A stretch of DNA of 64,000 bases from Bacteroidota bacterium. GTDB lineage: Bacteria; Bacteroidota; Bacteroidia; Cytophagales; Cyclobacteriaceae. The notes below the pieces were generated by a model, which was given only the letters and a program-made list of their open reading frames with translations, was not told where the DNA came from and searched no databases. The stretch's first letter is position 1. Every line of letters begins with the position of its first letter. The stretch lies in contig JAFEAM010000034.1 in assembly GCA_018266395.1 (NCBI GenBank), forward strand, positions 48,795-112,794. Direction: 5' to 3'. Shown here piece after piece: positions 10,466 to 15,871 of this stretch. A program made the translations under genes and the position numbers.

Positions 10466-11533
10466 TCAGTTTTTCACTGCCCAGGCCAGACCATCAGGTG
10501 CGTCACCGACATCAATCTTGCCGATCATTTCAAGTTTCTTCAGATCTACAACAGCTACATAGTTGTCAGGGGTGCATCCCAGAAAAGCACGCCCACCGTC
10601 CGGATCCACTAGAATTCCTGCGGCACCACGGCCAATGGGAATCCGCTTCACTTCTTTATGCGATTGAGCGTCGAATACAAACAAGTCGCCCATTCCCAAA
10701 CAGGAAACCAGAACGCGTTTGCCGTCGGGGGTGAACTTTAGCCGGTTCGCGCCTTTCACATTTGCATCCAGCTTGGCGGTCACTTTCTTTCCTGTAAGGT
10801 CAATGATCCAAATTGAACCATCACGTGCTGCTGCAGTCCAGAGTTGCTTGCCGTCGGGCGACACGTCAAAGCCTTCAGCACCAGGCCCCACCTGAATTAC
10901 AGTCTGCACCCAATCCTGACGCGGTTTGGCTCCTGGTATGACTGCACCCGTAGGTGTAGTGGGCGGAGGCAACAAAGTGTCGGCGAGGATGCTTACTGTA
11001 CCCGCATTTACATTGGTAGTGTAGATTCTCTTGATATCAGGCGTAACATAAATCATGTGAGTGCGATCCTGACCGGTTCCCATGCTCCAGTCAATTTTCC
11101 CTGAAGCGGGATCATAGCTTCCGACGGCCCGTGCACCTTCAGCCGAAAACCAGACTTTACCTCCTTCAAAGGCGAGTCCGTGCGGACCGATGAGTGGCCG
11201 GGTATCTATGTTCGGCAACGCCTTCTGGGCGACAAGATCGATTGCATTCATCTCAAATGATTTTCCCCCTCCAGTGATGGATACGTAAGCCATCTTTCCG
11301 TCAGCAGATGCAATCACTTCGTGTGGATCCGATCCTACCGGCACTTTGCCCATCACCTTTAACGTAACGGGATCAACTATGGCGAGCGTGTGATCGGCTT
11401 TGGATAGCGCCAGCAAAGTGCGCCTGGGATTGCCCTGTGATACACCCTCGGTCGTAACAGTGAACAGGAGCAAGTGAGCGCCCACGACAGCAAAAAGCAT
11501 CGTGAGGAAACTCTTTCTGGATGTAAGGATCAT
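10466..11533 (-). CDS. Exported YVTN-type beta-propeller protein
   Basis: 355 aa. Signal-anchor-like N-terminus, then about seven 40-residue blades of the YVTN/cytochrome D1-like type, for example LAIVDPVTLKVMGKVPVGSD, SPDGKQLWTAAARDGSIWII, TPDGKRVLVSCLGMGDLFVF and DPDGGRAFLGCTPDNYVAVV. No heme-binding CxxCH or catalytic motif is seen, so it is likely a periplasmic binding or scaffold protein. It is convergent with the M24 peptidase (39 bases between stops). A perfect inverted repeat lies 35 bases upstream of its start. Confidence 0.8.
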   Translation of the reverse strand: MILTSRKSFLTMLFAVVGAHLLLFTVTTEGVSQGNPRRTLLALSKADHTLAIVDPVTLKVMGKVPVGSDPHEVIASADGKMAYVSITGGGKSFEMNAIDLVAQKALPNIDTRPLIGPHGLAFEGGKVWFSAEGARAVGSYDPASGKIDWSMGTGQDRTHMIYVTPDIKRIYTTNVNAGTVSILADTLLPPPTTPTGAVIPGAKPRQDWVQTVIQVGPGAEGFDVSPDGKQLWTAAARDGSIWIIDLTGKKVTAKLDANVKGANRLKFTPDGKRVLVSCLGMGDLFVFDAQSHKEVKRIPIGRGAAGILVDPDGGRAFLGCTPDNYVAVVDLKKLEMIGKIDVGDAPDGLAWAVKN

Positions 11534-11655: not shown

Positions 11656-12423
11656 TTAGCTCCTGACCTTTCTGAAGTGATCAGAGGCAGTAAGCACCAA
11701 TAGTTTTGTTCCTGCATCAAACTGGATGGTTGCGAGTTCATCCTTCCCCAACTTTTTCACCGAATTAAGTTTGCCTTTGCCATAATTCATATGGAAAAGC
11801 TCATCTCCCGGCTTCAGCTTGAGAATCTCCTCAGCATTGAATGGATCGCCGACATAATCAGGCAGCGGTGAAATCACAGGGAGGTGAGAAGTCTTACTTA
11901 CACTCAATGGAGCCTCTGGTTGCGATGATCCACCAGATGATGGCGTTTCGGCAGAGGAGGAATGCAATCCAATACCAAGCCTGGTGATTATTTCATGCTT
12001 CTGCAATTTACTCTCGCTCGCCTTTTGAAGTGACTCGCTGAGTCCGTCAATTGCCTTCTGAACAGTGTCTATCCTCAGGGAGTCATCATATTCCACCACG
12101 TTCAAATCCACTGTCTGGAAAGGTATGTAGCTGTGAACATCCCTGATGAGCACCACGGGCAGGCCAAGCGCGTGCCGAACAGCCAGTCCATAGGAGGCAA
12201 GTTGATTATGACCGCTCATGTCGAAAATGGCCAATTCACTGTCGATCACTTCCTTTACCACATCAAATGGGTCGATGTGAACTGATCCGTCGGCCCTGTT
12301 CGGGAAAAAGCCGGCCTTGCGGCAGGCCGGTGCAACCACATATTCATATACACGGTTCACATGACCCTGCGGGTACCCATCCGGGTCATTCAGGGGCATG
12401 ATAATAAAGCATGTTTTGTCCAT
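11656..12423 (-). CDS. TIR/deoxyribosyltransferase-like domain fused to a UvrD/PcrA-type C-terminal tail
   Basis: 255 aa, cytosolic (no signal). Residues 4-95 match the widespread CFIIMPF family with a Rossmann-like TIR/nucleoside-deoxyribosyltransferase fold: CFIIMP (5-10), YEYVVAPACRKAGF, RAD (43-45), IFDMSGHN (66-73), then YGLAVRHALGLPVVLI. In active relatives the last block reads NPNVxYELGLAHALGKP; here the presumed catalytic Glu is Gly79. After a low-complexity Ser/Pro linker (about 150-195), residues 204-252 (KPGDELFHMNYGKGKLNSVK and onward to FDAGTKLLVL) resemble the Tudor-like C-terminal tail of UvrD/PcrA/Rep helicases that contacts RNA polymerase. No helicase or effector neighbour. 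Function unknown; a regulatory or defence-related nucleotide sensor is speculation. Confidence 0.65.
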   Translation of the reverse strand: MDKTCFIIMPLNDPDGYPQGHVNRVYEYVVAPACRKAGFFPNRADGSVHIDPFDVVKEVIDSELAIFDMSGHNQLASYGLAVRHALGLPVVLIRDVHSYIPFQTVDLNVVEYDDSLRIDTVQKAIDGLSESLQKASESKLQKHEIITRLGIGLHSSSAETPSSGGSSQPEAPLSVSKTSHLPVISPLPDYVGDPFNAEEILKLKPGDELFHMNYGKGKLNSVKKLGKDELATIQFDAGTKLLVLTASDHFRKVRS

Positions 12424-12643: not shown

Positions 12644-15600
12644 ATGAATCGCATCCGCCTAACCCTGATCCTGTGCGCGTTCCTATTGCAGGCCGCACTG
12701 GCACAAACCCTGAAGAAAGAAGATATCGAACAACTGAAATTCCGGTACATCGGTCCAATCGGCAACCGCATAAGTTGCGCGATAGGCATACCCGGGAATG
12801 ACCTGGTCTATTTTGCCGGTGCTGCCTCCGGCGGCCTCTGGAAAACCACAGATGGAGGTCTGAGTTGGAGGCCGGTATTCGACGACAAGAATGTGGCTTC
12901 GGTGAGCGCTCTTGCCGCAGCAGCATCGGATCATCAGATCATGTTTGCGGGCACCGGGGAGAGCTTCATCCGCTCCAACGTCACGATTGGAAACGGCGTC
13001 TACAAGTCTACAGATGGAGGTGAGACCTGGCAACTTTCCGGGCTCGAGAACACCGGCAGGATTTCACGCATCGTCATCCACCCCACCAATCCCGACATCA
13101 TTTATGTTTGTTCCGTGGGTCATGCCTATGCGCCACAGAAGGAACGCGGCGTCTACAAGTCAACTGACGGAGGAAAGACATGGAGGCAAGTGCTTTTTGT
13201 GGACGAAAACACCGGCGCGTCAGATCTCGTCATGGATCCAACAAATCCCAGAATTCTTTTTGCCGGGATGTGGCAGATTTCATTGAAGAACTGGAACCGC
13301 ACCAGCGGTGGACCAGGAAGTGGTCTTCATATGTCAACCGATGGCGGTGAAACCTGGAAGAAACTTTCAGGGAGCGGCTTGCCCGAAGGGCCCGTCGGCA
13401 AGATTGCCCTTACGATGACGCCTGCAGCGCCCAACCGTGTCTATGCACTTATCGAAACAGGGGATGGACTGGAGAAACTTAATGACAAAGACAAGGCAGA
13501 GACCGGTGAACTGTGGCGTTCAGATGACAAAGGAAAATCATGGACTCTCATGAGTTCTGACCGGAACATGTCGGGCAGGCAAGCTTATTATACCCGGACT
13601 GCTGCATCACCAGACAATCCAAATGAAATCTACTTCATCAACGCCGGTTTCTTTACCAGTATCGACGGCGGCAGATCTTTGGAGCCCATCACCAGTTTCC
13701 TGTCCCAGCCATATGGAGATCATCATGACATGTGGATTGATCCCACCAACGCCAACCGCTCAATCGTTTCACACGACGGGGGCATTTCCATCTCGAAGGA
13801 TCGTTGCAAAAGCTGGAGCAGGATTGCACTTCCCATCGCCCAGCTCTATCATGTGACGGTTGACAACAATATCCCTTACAACGTACTTACCAATCGTCAG
13901 GATGGCCCTTCGATGCGCGGCCCAAGCCGCAGCGGCATTGGGTCCTTCTTCGGAATGATGGGCATACCCAGCATTGGCACCGGGATGTGGCATGAAGTGG
14001 GTGGAGGTGAAAGCGGATTTGCTACACCGGATCCGAAAGATCCAGATGTGATCTGGTCAACAGCCTCAGGAACCGGCGCGGTAGGCGGTGTGGTTGTACG
14101 CTTCAATGAAAAGAACCGCCAGTTCCGTCAGGTTGAAATCTGGCCGGACTATGTGGCCGGTACGCCTGCGGCCGATGTGAAGTATAGATTCCAGTGGACG
14201 TTCCCGCTGCTTATCTCACCTCACGATCACAATACAGTTTATGCCGCAAGTCAAATGGTGCACAAGACAACCAACGGCGGACAAAGCTGGCAGGTGATCA
14301 GCCCTGATCTCACCCTAAATGACAAGAAGCAGCAACAACAGTCGGGTGGCCTTACCCCTGACAACATCGGCGTCGAGTATGCCAATGTCATTTCCGCTTT
14401 TGAAGAATCTCCAATGAAACAAGGTCTGCTCTGGACGGGCAGCAGTGACGGACAAATCAATGTCACGCAGGACGGCGGGAAGACCTGGACTAACGTAAGC
14501 AAGAATTTCACCGACCTCCCTGCCCAGGGTGCTGTGAGAAATATCGAAGCCTCCAAATATGCGGAAGGCAAAGCGTTCCTCGTGGTTGATTTTCATGAAC
14601 AGGGCAACTTCCAGCCTTATGCCTACAGGACTACAGATTATGGCAAGACCTGGAAGAAGATTGTGAAGGGCATCGAACCCGGTATAAGTTATTGCCGATC
14701 CATCAAGGAGGATCCCATTCGTAAGGGACTTCTCTACCTCGGTACCGAAACAGCACTCTATATTTCTTTTGATGATGGTGATACCTGGCAACCTTTCATG
14801 AATAACCTGCCTCATACTCCTTTCTATTGGCTGGAAGTACAGGAACATTTTAATGATTTGGTTATAGGTACATATGGTCGAGGCGTATGGATCCTCGATG
14901 ACCTGACTCCACTCCAGCAGTTGCCTGTCAACGCGGCAGAAACCAAAGCAGCCTTGTTCAATCCCAAGGATGCCTATCGCTTTCAGGCCAGGACCAGCTC
15001 GTTGCAGCAGCTGCCTGAACCATCATGGGGATTTGATCCGCCCTATGGCGCCTCAATCAATTACTGGACAAACTCAGACAAGGATAGTGTCAAGGTGTAC
15101 ATCACCAGCGCTTCCGGCGATACCATCAGAACCTTCAAACAAAAAGGCAAGGCAGGTATCAACAGAATTTGGTGGGACCTCCAGAACAAACCCACAAAGG
15201 ACATCATGATGCATACAAAGCCCCTTGGCGGAGATTGGGTCTCCTGGGACAAGGATCGCAAACGTCCGGCGCATGTGGCCACTTTCAAGTCCTATATGGT
15301 TCCTCCCGGTAAGTACAATGTTGTCATGACTACAGCAGGTCAGACATTCAAAAGTTCCGTCAATCTTCTGAAGGATCCTCACTCTGATGGAAGTGCAGAT
15401 GACATCAAGGCGCAGACTGACATGCTGGCCAGCATGTACAAGGATATCAATAGCATTGCGGATATGGTCAATGAGCTGGAAATCATCCGCCGTCAGGTAT
15501 ATGACATGCGTGACGTTCTGAAGCCTAAAGCCAGCAACAAGAAGCTGGTCGCAGCTGCCGGCAAGCTCGACTCAGCTATCATTAAGGTAGAGTCCAAACT

Positions 15601-15871
15601 GATTCAACTTAAGTACACGGGCACAGGACAGGATGATGTCCGGTATCCGGAAATGCTCGCAGGACGGATTGCTTATCTGGCCGGCGCAGTGGGTACGGCG
15701 GACTTCGCTCCAGCCGATCAGCACAAAGAAGTTTATGCCATGCTGAAAGAAAAACTTGCTCAATCGCAGAATGAAATGGACGCTTTGCTGAAAGGTGAAG
15801 TGGCGGCCTTCACGAAGCAACTGGATGACAGCGGCATCAAGCCCATAGTCATCACCTGGAAGAAACCATAG
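12644..15871 (+). CDS. Secreted sortilin/Vps10-like BNR-repeat beta-propeller protein
   Basis: 1075 aa; signal peptide MNRIRLTLILCAFLLQAALA. At least nine Asp-box (BNR) motifs of the form S/T-x-D-G-G-x-T/S-W are visible: KTTDGGLSW, KSTDGGETW, KSTDGGKTW, MSTDGGETW, RSDDKGKSW, KTTNGGQSW, VTQDGGKTW, RTTDYGKTW and ISFDDGDTW, the pattern of VPS10/sortilin-like ten-bladed propellers. The last 300 residues are a beta-rich and then helical region (KLVAAAGKLDSAIIKVESKL) without propeller repeats. Family members are often labelled glycosyl hydrolases but no sialidase active site is evident. Large secreted or periplasmic; no T9SS C-terminal sorting domain seen. A strong terminator follows, so it is transcribed alone. 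Confidence 0.82.
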   Translation: MNRIRLTLILCAFLLQAALAQTLKKEDIEQLKFRYIGPIGNRISCAIGIPGNDLVYFAGAASGGLWKTTDGGLSWRPVFDDKNVASVSALAAAASDHQIMFAGTGESFIRSNVTIGNGVYKSTDGGETWQLSGLENTGRISRIVIHPTNPDIIYVCSVGHAYAPQKERGVYKSTDGGKTWRQVLFVDENTGASDLVMDPTNPRILFAGMWQISLKNWNRTSGGPGSGLHMSTDGGETWKKLSGSGLPEGPVGKIALTMTPAAPNRVYALIETGDGLEKLNDKDKAETGELWRSDDKGKSWTLMSSDRNMSGRQAYYTRTAASPDNPNEIYFINAGFFTSIDGGRSLEPITSFLSQPYGDHHDMWIDPTNANRSIVSHDGGISISKDRCKSWSRIALPIAQLYHVTVDNNIPYNVLTNRQDGPSMRGPSRSGIGSFFGMMGIPSIGTGMWHEVGGGESGFATPDPKDPDVIWSTASGTGAVGGVVVRFNEKNRQFRQVEIWPDYVAGTPAADVKYRFQWTFPLLISPHDHNTVYAASQMVHKTTNGGQSWQVISPDLTLNDKKQQQQSGGLTPDNIGVEYANVISAFEESPMKQGLLWTGSSDGQINVTQDGGKTWTNVSKNFTDLPAQGAVRNIEASKYAEGKAFLVVDFHEQGNFQPYAYRTTDYGKTWKKIVKGIEPGISYCRSIKEDPIRKGLLYLGTETALYISFDDGDTWQPFMNNLPHTPFYWLEVQEHFNDLVIGTYGRGVWILDDLTPLQQLPVNAAETKAALFNPKDAYRFQARTSSLQQLPEPSWGFDPPYGASINYWTNSDKDSVKVYITSASGDTIRTFKQKGKAGINRIWWDLQNKPTKDIMMHTKPLGGDWVSWDKDRKRPAHVATFKSYMVPPGKYNVVMTTAGQTFKSSVNLLKDPHSDGSADDIKAQTDMLASMYKDINSIADMVNELEIIRRQVYDMRDVLKPKASNKKLVAAAGKLDSAIIKVESKLIQLKYTGTGQDDVRYPEMLAGRIAYLAGAVGTADFAPADQHKEVYAMLKEKLAQSQNEMDALLKGEVAAFTKQLDDSGIKPIVITWKKP

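Follow-up and report, generated by a model that had tools for sequence, protein, structure and literature searches.

Structure of the P0001 locus

The window analysed here is a stretch of 64,000 nucleotides on contig C27 of a Bacteroidota genome (G000; 4.4 Mb in 56 contigs). Its minus strand carries, at positions 11656..12423, a gene for a protein of 255 amino acids, P0001, which is recognized from its open reading frame and from full-length relatives. The frame starts with an ATG and runs from 12423 to 11656. On this strand the interval holds one open frame, and several stops occur in its plus-strand frame 1. A preliminary description of this DNA had proposed a fusion of a TIR/deoxyribosyltransferase-like domain with a UvrD/PcrA-type tail. 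The frame and all of the quoted motifs are present, with CFIIMP (residues 5-10), RAD (43-45), DMSGHN (68-73), and HALGLPVV (84-91) in the N-terminal part and PGD...H..YG.G (205-217) and FDAGTK.L (235-242) in the tail.

The AF2 model of P0001 has a mean pLDDT of 84.5, with ten-residue means of 84-97 through residue 140. A Rossmann-type TIR/NDT-like domain occupies residues 4-137 or so (12013..12414, minus strand), as supported by pLDDT, phrog_3634, Foldseek, and PADLOC matches in relatives. Within it, alignment column 79 places Gly79 (codon at 12187..12189) where relatives have their catalytic Glu. A disordered linker follows at residues 157-183 (11875..11955; pLDDT below 50). Ahead of the tail, at residues 181-193 (11845..11883), the alignments contain the motif LPVISPLPDYVGD, which is kept in most members of the clade described below and is shorter in L038 and L042. 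The PcrA/UvrD-type Tudor tail takes up residues 202-253 approximately (11665..11820), as drawn from profiles, Foldseek, and a tail alignment, and the model has five strands at 208-253. Profile, structural, and comparative evidence all back the fusion architecture.

The gene lies beside a putative beta-propeller-like protein gene (10466-11533, minus strand) and a putative large repeat protein gene (12644-15871, plus strand). Judging by their sequences, these nearest genes look to have no apparent relation to P0001.

Fold and family of the N-terminal domain

In the predicted structure, the N-terminal domain of P0001 is of NDT/DNPH1/TIR-like fold. The phage family phrog_3634, whose function is unannotated, matches residues 2-135 with an E-value of 6.6e-21. 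Foldseek matches of the P0001 domain are weak, with NDT at rank 11, DNPH1 at 13, and TIR-STING at 19, below EF-Tu and KRAS chains. For the Betaproteobacterial relative L046, ranks 1-14 are all MilB, NDT, and DNPH1, with TIR-STING at rank 15. PADLOC's TIR effector profile PDLC00733 matches each of the five Glu-bearing relatives scanned (E = 2.8e-7 to 4e-6), two of which have a PcrA-like tail; the PADLOC scan of P0001 gave no match. P0001 likewise does not match PF05014. Among the relatives, L046 (15.7 bits), L049 (17.3), and L041 (13.9) match this family below its 28.8-bit cut-off, and L039 and L061 do not match it. One of five relatives matches PF10137, also below cut-off.

P0001 differs from each of its closest known kin. 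The NDT, DNPH1, and MilB proteins share its fold, and their Asp...Asn...Glu region is found in its relatives, but P0001 is only 8-19% identical to them (Foldseek rows), has lost the Glu, and has an extra tail. The kinship with PDLC00733 is seen in the Glu-bearing relatives, whereas P0001 is unmatched, lacks the catalytic Glu, and carries another C-terminal module. The phage members of phrog_3634 that we read share the N-domain with P0001 but retain the Glu and mostly have other C-terminal domains. A likeness of logic exists with the DUF4062/Swarozyc TIR-like NADase, which the excerpted text of PMC13174449 describes as a TIR-like domain with a helical stalk and an auxiliary domain that binds its target; that target is the phage portal, while for P0001 we propose RNA polymerase (RNAP). 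A distant branch of the N-domain within the same order is fused to a TPR-S sensor domain, as found in L061 (tested with PF20308); L064, L066, and L071 are placed in this branch by similar length and sequence only.

Kinship of the tail with PcrA/UvrD

Taken alone, the tail of P0001 has a weak match that is also like the RNAP-interaction domain of Mfd and CarD. Pfam gives CarD_TRCF_RID (PF02559) at E = 0.019, below threshold (15.5 bits against a cut-off of 23), and PcrA_UvrD_tudor (PF21196) is unlisted. The best Pfam row, Peptidase_M35 (E = 0.0075), is taken as chance. Against PDB sequences, the best match for the tail is a helicase tail (9dqs, E = 0.048).

The relatives sharpen this picture. 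L041, from Formosa algae, clears the PF21196 cut-off (27.3 versus 23.9 bits), and three others fall below it (the G026 relative at 23.0 bits, the G034 relative at 20.3, and L039 at 19.7). Among the nine members of alignment A1, six match CarD_TRCF_RID and four match PF21196. A profile of sixteen tails finds helicase tails in its eight best PDB matches (named PcrA, UvrD, helicase II, or plain DNA helicase), the first being 5dma at E = 1e-6; Mfd and CarD chains are absent from its matches up to E = 1. In profile-profile comparison, the clade tails score 32.8 against PcrA tails over forty-four columns (probability 91%), and the highest of 200 column-shuffled PcrA alignments scores 23.7, which rules out a chance likeness to PcrA. 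The score against the Mfd RID is 31.8 over twenty-two columns (highest of 200 shuffles, 20.7). Tails of the Glu-bearing relatives separate the two families further, matching genus PcrA tails with 99.2% probability and E = 1e-19 and Mfd with E = 2.9e-6. Foldseek of the P0001 model puts the PcrA Tudor domain 5dma at rank 1, with TMt values for the tail of 0.78 (5dma), 0.80 (9dqs), and 0.82 (7egs_B).

Because the profile, shuffle, and Foldseek results agree once relatives are included, the match is more than chance, and we conclude that the clade tail is of the PcrA type, diverged in P0001's clade. The kinship with the UvrD/PcrA C-terminal domain suggested beforehand is thus borne out both by profile and by Foldseek, and homologues carry a conserved tail instead of random sequence there. 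P0001 has in common with the PcrA/UvrD Tudor domain (PF21196; 5dma, 7egs) the fold, the length, the His, Lys, and Leu positions, and a flexible linker before it. Unlike in those proteins, the domain sits on a TIR/NDT-like domain without a helicase; an SF1 helicase core is absent from P0001, which has 255 residues, no helicase family match, and an N-domain of another fold. In addition, PcrA Trp684 is replaced by Tyr, His, or Phe, and genus PcrA tails end in SFAKL, whereas P0001-type tails end in ASD.FRK or similar. G000 keeps its own PcrA with a Tudor tail, so the P0001 Tudor domain is an extra copy and was not taken from the host's own PcrA.

Loss of the catalytic glutamate and selection

The catalytic Glu was correctly described as lost. 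At column 79, the fifteen clade rows have G, A, V, I, or S without exception, and twenty-three of the twenty-five other aligned rows have E; a further relative, L068, was left out of this count by the motif filter and has an E visible in its sequence. All Glu-less rows of the P0001 type form one clade in the tree (support 100/97). The two other exceptions, L054 and L055, have K and Q. Two losses are seen in all, both in tail-bearing lineages, which are too few to tie the loss of the Glu to the tail. Among phage and plasmid relatives, E is present in 40/40 N-domains read (41 loci, near-duplicates included). Asp68, Ser70, Arg83, Arg117, and Asp119 are kept in 15/15 clade rows, and Asn73 varies (to Tyr or Asp) in four of the fifteen.

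Both domains are under purifying selection among the relatives. In the closest pair (L033/L034), dN/dS is 0.06 for the N-domain, 0.22 for the linker, and 0.095 for the tail, and the linker value is always above that of the domains where both ratios exist; in the two pairs that include the P0001 gene itself, dS is saturated in both domains and gives no ratio. Since dN/dS is well below 1 in both domains, the Glu-less protein is maintained in the relatives. A decaying pseudogene is ruled out by the intact frames together with these values in pairs with measurable dS.

Where P0001 has its disordered linker, the Glu-bearing relatives nearest to it show a helix-like segment. With a profile of this segment, built from the same ten rows that it then matches, none of the fifteen clade rows scores above -0.9 bits; the profile is weak also in three tail-bearing relatives and in many phage rows. 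That an oligomerizing helix was lost together with the Glu is suggestive only.

Distribution of relatives

Whole-protein relatives with 41-53% identity occur in nine of thirty-six genomes of the same genus, counting the source genome, with the tail of the G004 copy cut by a contig end. Profiles added full-length relatives in five more genomes (G207, G050, G039, G090, and G377), so the same architecture recurs elsewhere. This patchy distribution within the genus indicates that the gene is not essential. Scanning named genomes with A1 gave twenty-four loci. Thirteen are from Bacteroidota MAGs and are of the full-length Glu-less type, and one more, L042, is cut by a contig end. Three combine the Glu with a tail (Cytophaga aurantiaca L039, a Flavobacteriaceae MAG L040, and Formosa algae L041), and seven (L043-L049) have the N-domain with a different C-terminus or none. 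Within the order, A1 gives matches in 350 of the 390 genomes. Those listed are mostly to the tail by itself, in frames whose length (about 740-850 amino acids) is that of PcrA/UvrD, and many of the rest are to N-domains followed by a different C-terminus. Class-wide, A2 matched in 7/395 genomes at E = 1e-18 or better, and at full length only in the source genome.

No neighbouring gene common to the whole clade was found, and context gives no function. Neighbours are shared by close relatives (G002 with G032, and G001 with the genome of L031). In G034 and G004, a gene for a 323-amino-acid protein lies 0.8-1 kb upstream of the fusion with another gene between them (L020:6503-7474 and L024:5777-6733). 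In Winogradskyella jejuensis (L047:4769-6693), a gene that from its sequence is putatively patatin-like lies just upstream of an N-domain relative that has no Tudor tail.

Relatives in phages and plasmids

Of 50,697 phage records, 55 contain a member of the N-domain family (query L041), as do 80 of 72,556 plasmid records (query L046); many of these are near-duplicates. None of these records matched over 80% of the query, and no fusion was found among them. Viral contigs searched with P0001 alone yielded no relative; searched with alignment A4, they yielded thirty-seven loci. In eighteen of the thirty-seven, the gene lies between a cI-like repressor and an integrase, and the same holds for L147, which belongs to a prophage carried by a plasmid of Pantoea. 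The cI and integrase profiles were built from three of those eighteen loci, and L147 was assigned by annotation (full set: L147, L154, L159, L161, L164, L166-L173, and L176-L181). The corresponding position in P2-related Vibrionaceae phages is described as a hotspot with defence systems in the excerpts of PMC9122126. These phrog_3634-type genes are candidates for a single-gene defence family that prophages carry and whose C-terminal domains vary.

C-terminal domains do differ among the viral and plasmid proteins. A PcrA-like tail turns up in one viral homologue, L182 (E = 2.8e-6, with only the frames of these loci searched), and the model of L046 also has a C-terminal beta domain, predicted with confidence. 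We infer a modular family in which a TIR/NDT-like domain is joined to a small, exchangeable docking domain. In Escherichia phage vB_EcoM-689R2 (L144:1938-4346), two TIR/NDT-like genes, one of them annotated as TIR-like, lie about 0.7 kb apart, separated by a nuclease gene and two small ones.

Proposed docking on RNA polymerase

In the excerpted text of PMC5397179, the PcrA substitutions H681A, W684A, K712A, and L714A each severely reduce binding to RNAP. HMMER alignment to 1pjr/5dma equates these four residues with His211 (11791..11793), Tyr214 (11782..11784), Lys240 (11704..11706), and Leu242 (11698..11700) of P0001, all on the minus strand. All sixteen tails have the His and the Lys; the Leu is found in fifteen, with Ile in the other, and the Trp position holds Tyr, His, or Phe.

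The PcrA Tudor domain binds a beta-hairpin motif of RpoB, given as [VIL]-D-x-x-T-G-E-[VIL]-[VILT] in the portion of PMC8318588 on this interaction. In G000, RpoB contains VDEDTGEVV, which fits this pattern, just ahead of a contig end; the gene (L132, G000:C15) is split right after the helicase interaction motif, probably by an assembly break. The same VDEDTGEVV is present in RpoB of ten of twelve further genomes, the other two giving no rpoB match. Thus, all eleven genomes with RpoB read have the motif, eight of which carry the fusion and three in which no fusion was found. Its presence in genomes without a detected fusion is expected of PcrA's own site, and it follows that the motif does not single out P0001. 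The UvrB of G000 has a degenerate version, with TGK for TGE. Given the kept binding residues, the exact motif in RpoB, and the TGK in UvrB, docking on RpoB is our best guess from the sequences.

Discussion

Computation supports the fusion architecture of P0001, the kinship of its tail, the kept binding residues, the RpoB motif, the loss of the Glu in one clade, purifying selection, and kin in a prophage hotspot. The reading that we favour, with a probability of roughly 40 per cent, is that P0001 is a pseudo-enzyme docked on RNAP, where it would sense a partner or a nucleotide-like ligand and modulate the access of PcrA to the polymerase. Its Tudor domain would bind the TGE hairpin that the beta subunit of RNAP exposes (the site used by PcrA) through His211, Tyr214, Lys240, and Leu242, and the flexible linker would hold out the N-domain of NDT/DNPH1/TIR fold. 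Without its Glu, this domain would most likely bind a nucleotide, an NAD-like ligand, or a partner and cleave nothing. The simplest output would be regulatory: occupancy of the hairpin by P0001, tuned by the N-domain, would compete with PcrA and thereby influence R-loop clearance and the backtracking of RNAP. For P0001, we infer binding to RNAP, loss of catalysis, binding of a ligand, and competition with PcrA. The ancestors may have been stand-alone TIR/NDT-like proteins of a family common in temperate phages, with the Glu intact and exchangeable small C-terminal domains, and were probably defence effectors. P0001 resembles a protein of the phage-defence type that has been converted into a putative transcription-bound regulator. 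Several observations go against this pseudo-enzyme reading: Pfam places the P0001 tail nearer to CarD/TRCF_RID, the Trp684 position has changed in the clade, the NDT and TIR matches of the N-domain rank below those to EF-Tu and KRAS, and neither PADLOC nor a neighbour common to the clade marks the gene.

RNA polymerase is a favourite phage target. The main rival, which we consider rather unlikely, is accordingly one of guard immunity, where the tail watches RNAP and the N-domain is a defence module. Relatives with both Glu and tail (Cytophaga aurantiaca, Formosa algae) would respond to phage proteins that disturb RNAP by cleaving NAD or nucleotides, and the clade without the Glu would serve as a decoy or in regulation. 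The PADLOC matches in all five Glu-bearing relatives, two of them tailed, the cI-integrase placing of eighteen viral loci, a position that PMC9122126 describes as a defence hotspot in P2-related phages of Vibrionaceae, and the PcrA-like tail of the viral L182 all point this way. Yet the tail-bearing gene is solo and chromosomal, the neighbours inspected (few by family search) do not look like defence genes, and P0001's own clade lacks the catalytic residue. The step of docking on RNAP is common to this reading and to the pseudo-enzyme.

The remaining alternatives concern what the tail binds and whether the N-domain still works as an enzyme. The excerpts of PMC8318588 report that the PcrA Tudor domain also binds UvrB, and those of PMC7585439 that the UvrD Tudor domain binds DNA non-specifically, so the tail could dock on UvrB, on some other protein with such a hairpin, or on nucleic acid instead of RNAP; with the exact motif in the host's RpoB and TGK in its UvrB, we think this improbable. 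It is also improbable, and slightly more so, that the tail binds RNAP as the Mfd RID and CarD do, at the beta1 lobe rather than the PcrA hairpin and without competing with PcrA. CarD_TRCF_RID is matched by most A1 members and the Mfd score of the clade tail nearly equals that for PcrA, but the PDB matches are helicase tails, Foldseek ranks 5dma first, the tails of Glu-bearing relatives are far closer to PcrA, and the equivalents of Lys712 and Leu714 are kept. Finally, the five invariant residues of the N-domain, together with the MilB, NDT, and DNPH1 folds nearest to L046, would suit a nucleotide N-glycosidase that acts near transcription through another acid (e.g. Asp68). Against such a surviving enzyme stand a position 79 that is small or hydrophobic throughout the clade and an Asn73 that varies, and we regard it as very improbable.

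The separate parts of P0001 have precedents; their combination, like the Glu-less clade, appears in none of the literature matches listed. Those matches are from open-access papers, with subscription papers mostly outside, and among them we found no fusion of a TIR/NDT-like domain with a PcrA-type Tudor domain and no Glu-less clade of it. A search of PMC9503650 for deoxyribosyltransferase returned nothing.

If the favoured reading is true, P0001 would use the docking site of PcrA/UvrD on RNAP without being a helicase, and it would connect immune domains of the TIR/NDT type with the machinery of transcription. A broader idea, which we hold as speculative and doubtful, is a transcription-anchored immunity or stress sensor in Bacteroidota: phage-borne TIR/NDT-like effectors may have gained a PcrA docking domain and so read the state of RNAP directly, with one clade switched off and kept as a PcrA-competing pseudo-enzyme. 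The family phrog_3634 gains a probable context as prophage defence cargo. Two ideas become testable with these proteins, namely that antiphage immunity monitors RNAP as a target and that the access of PcrA to RNAP may be regulated by a competitor.
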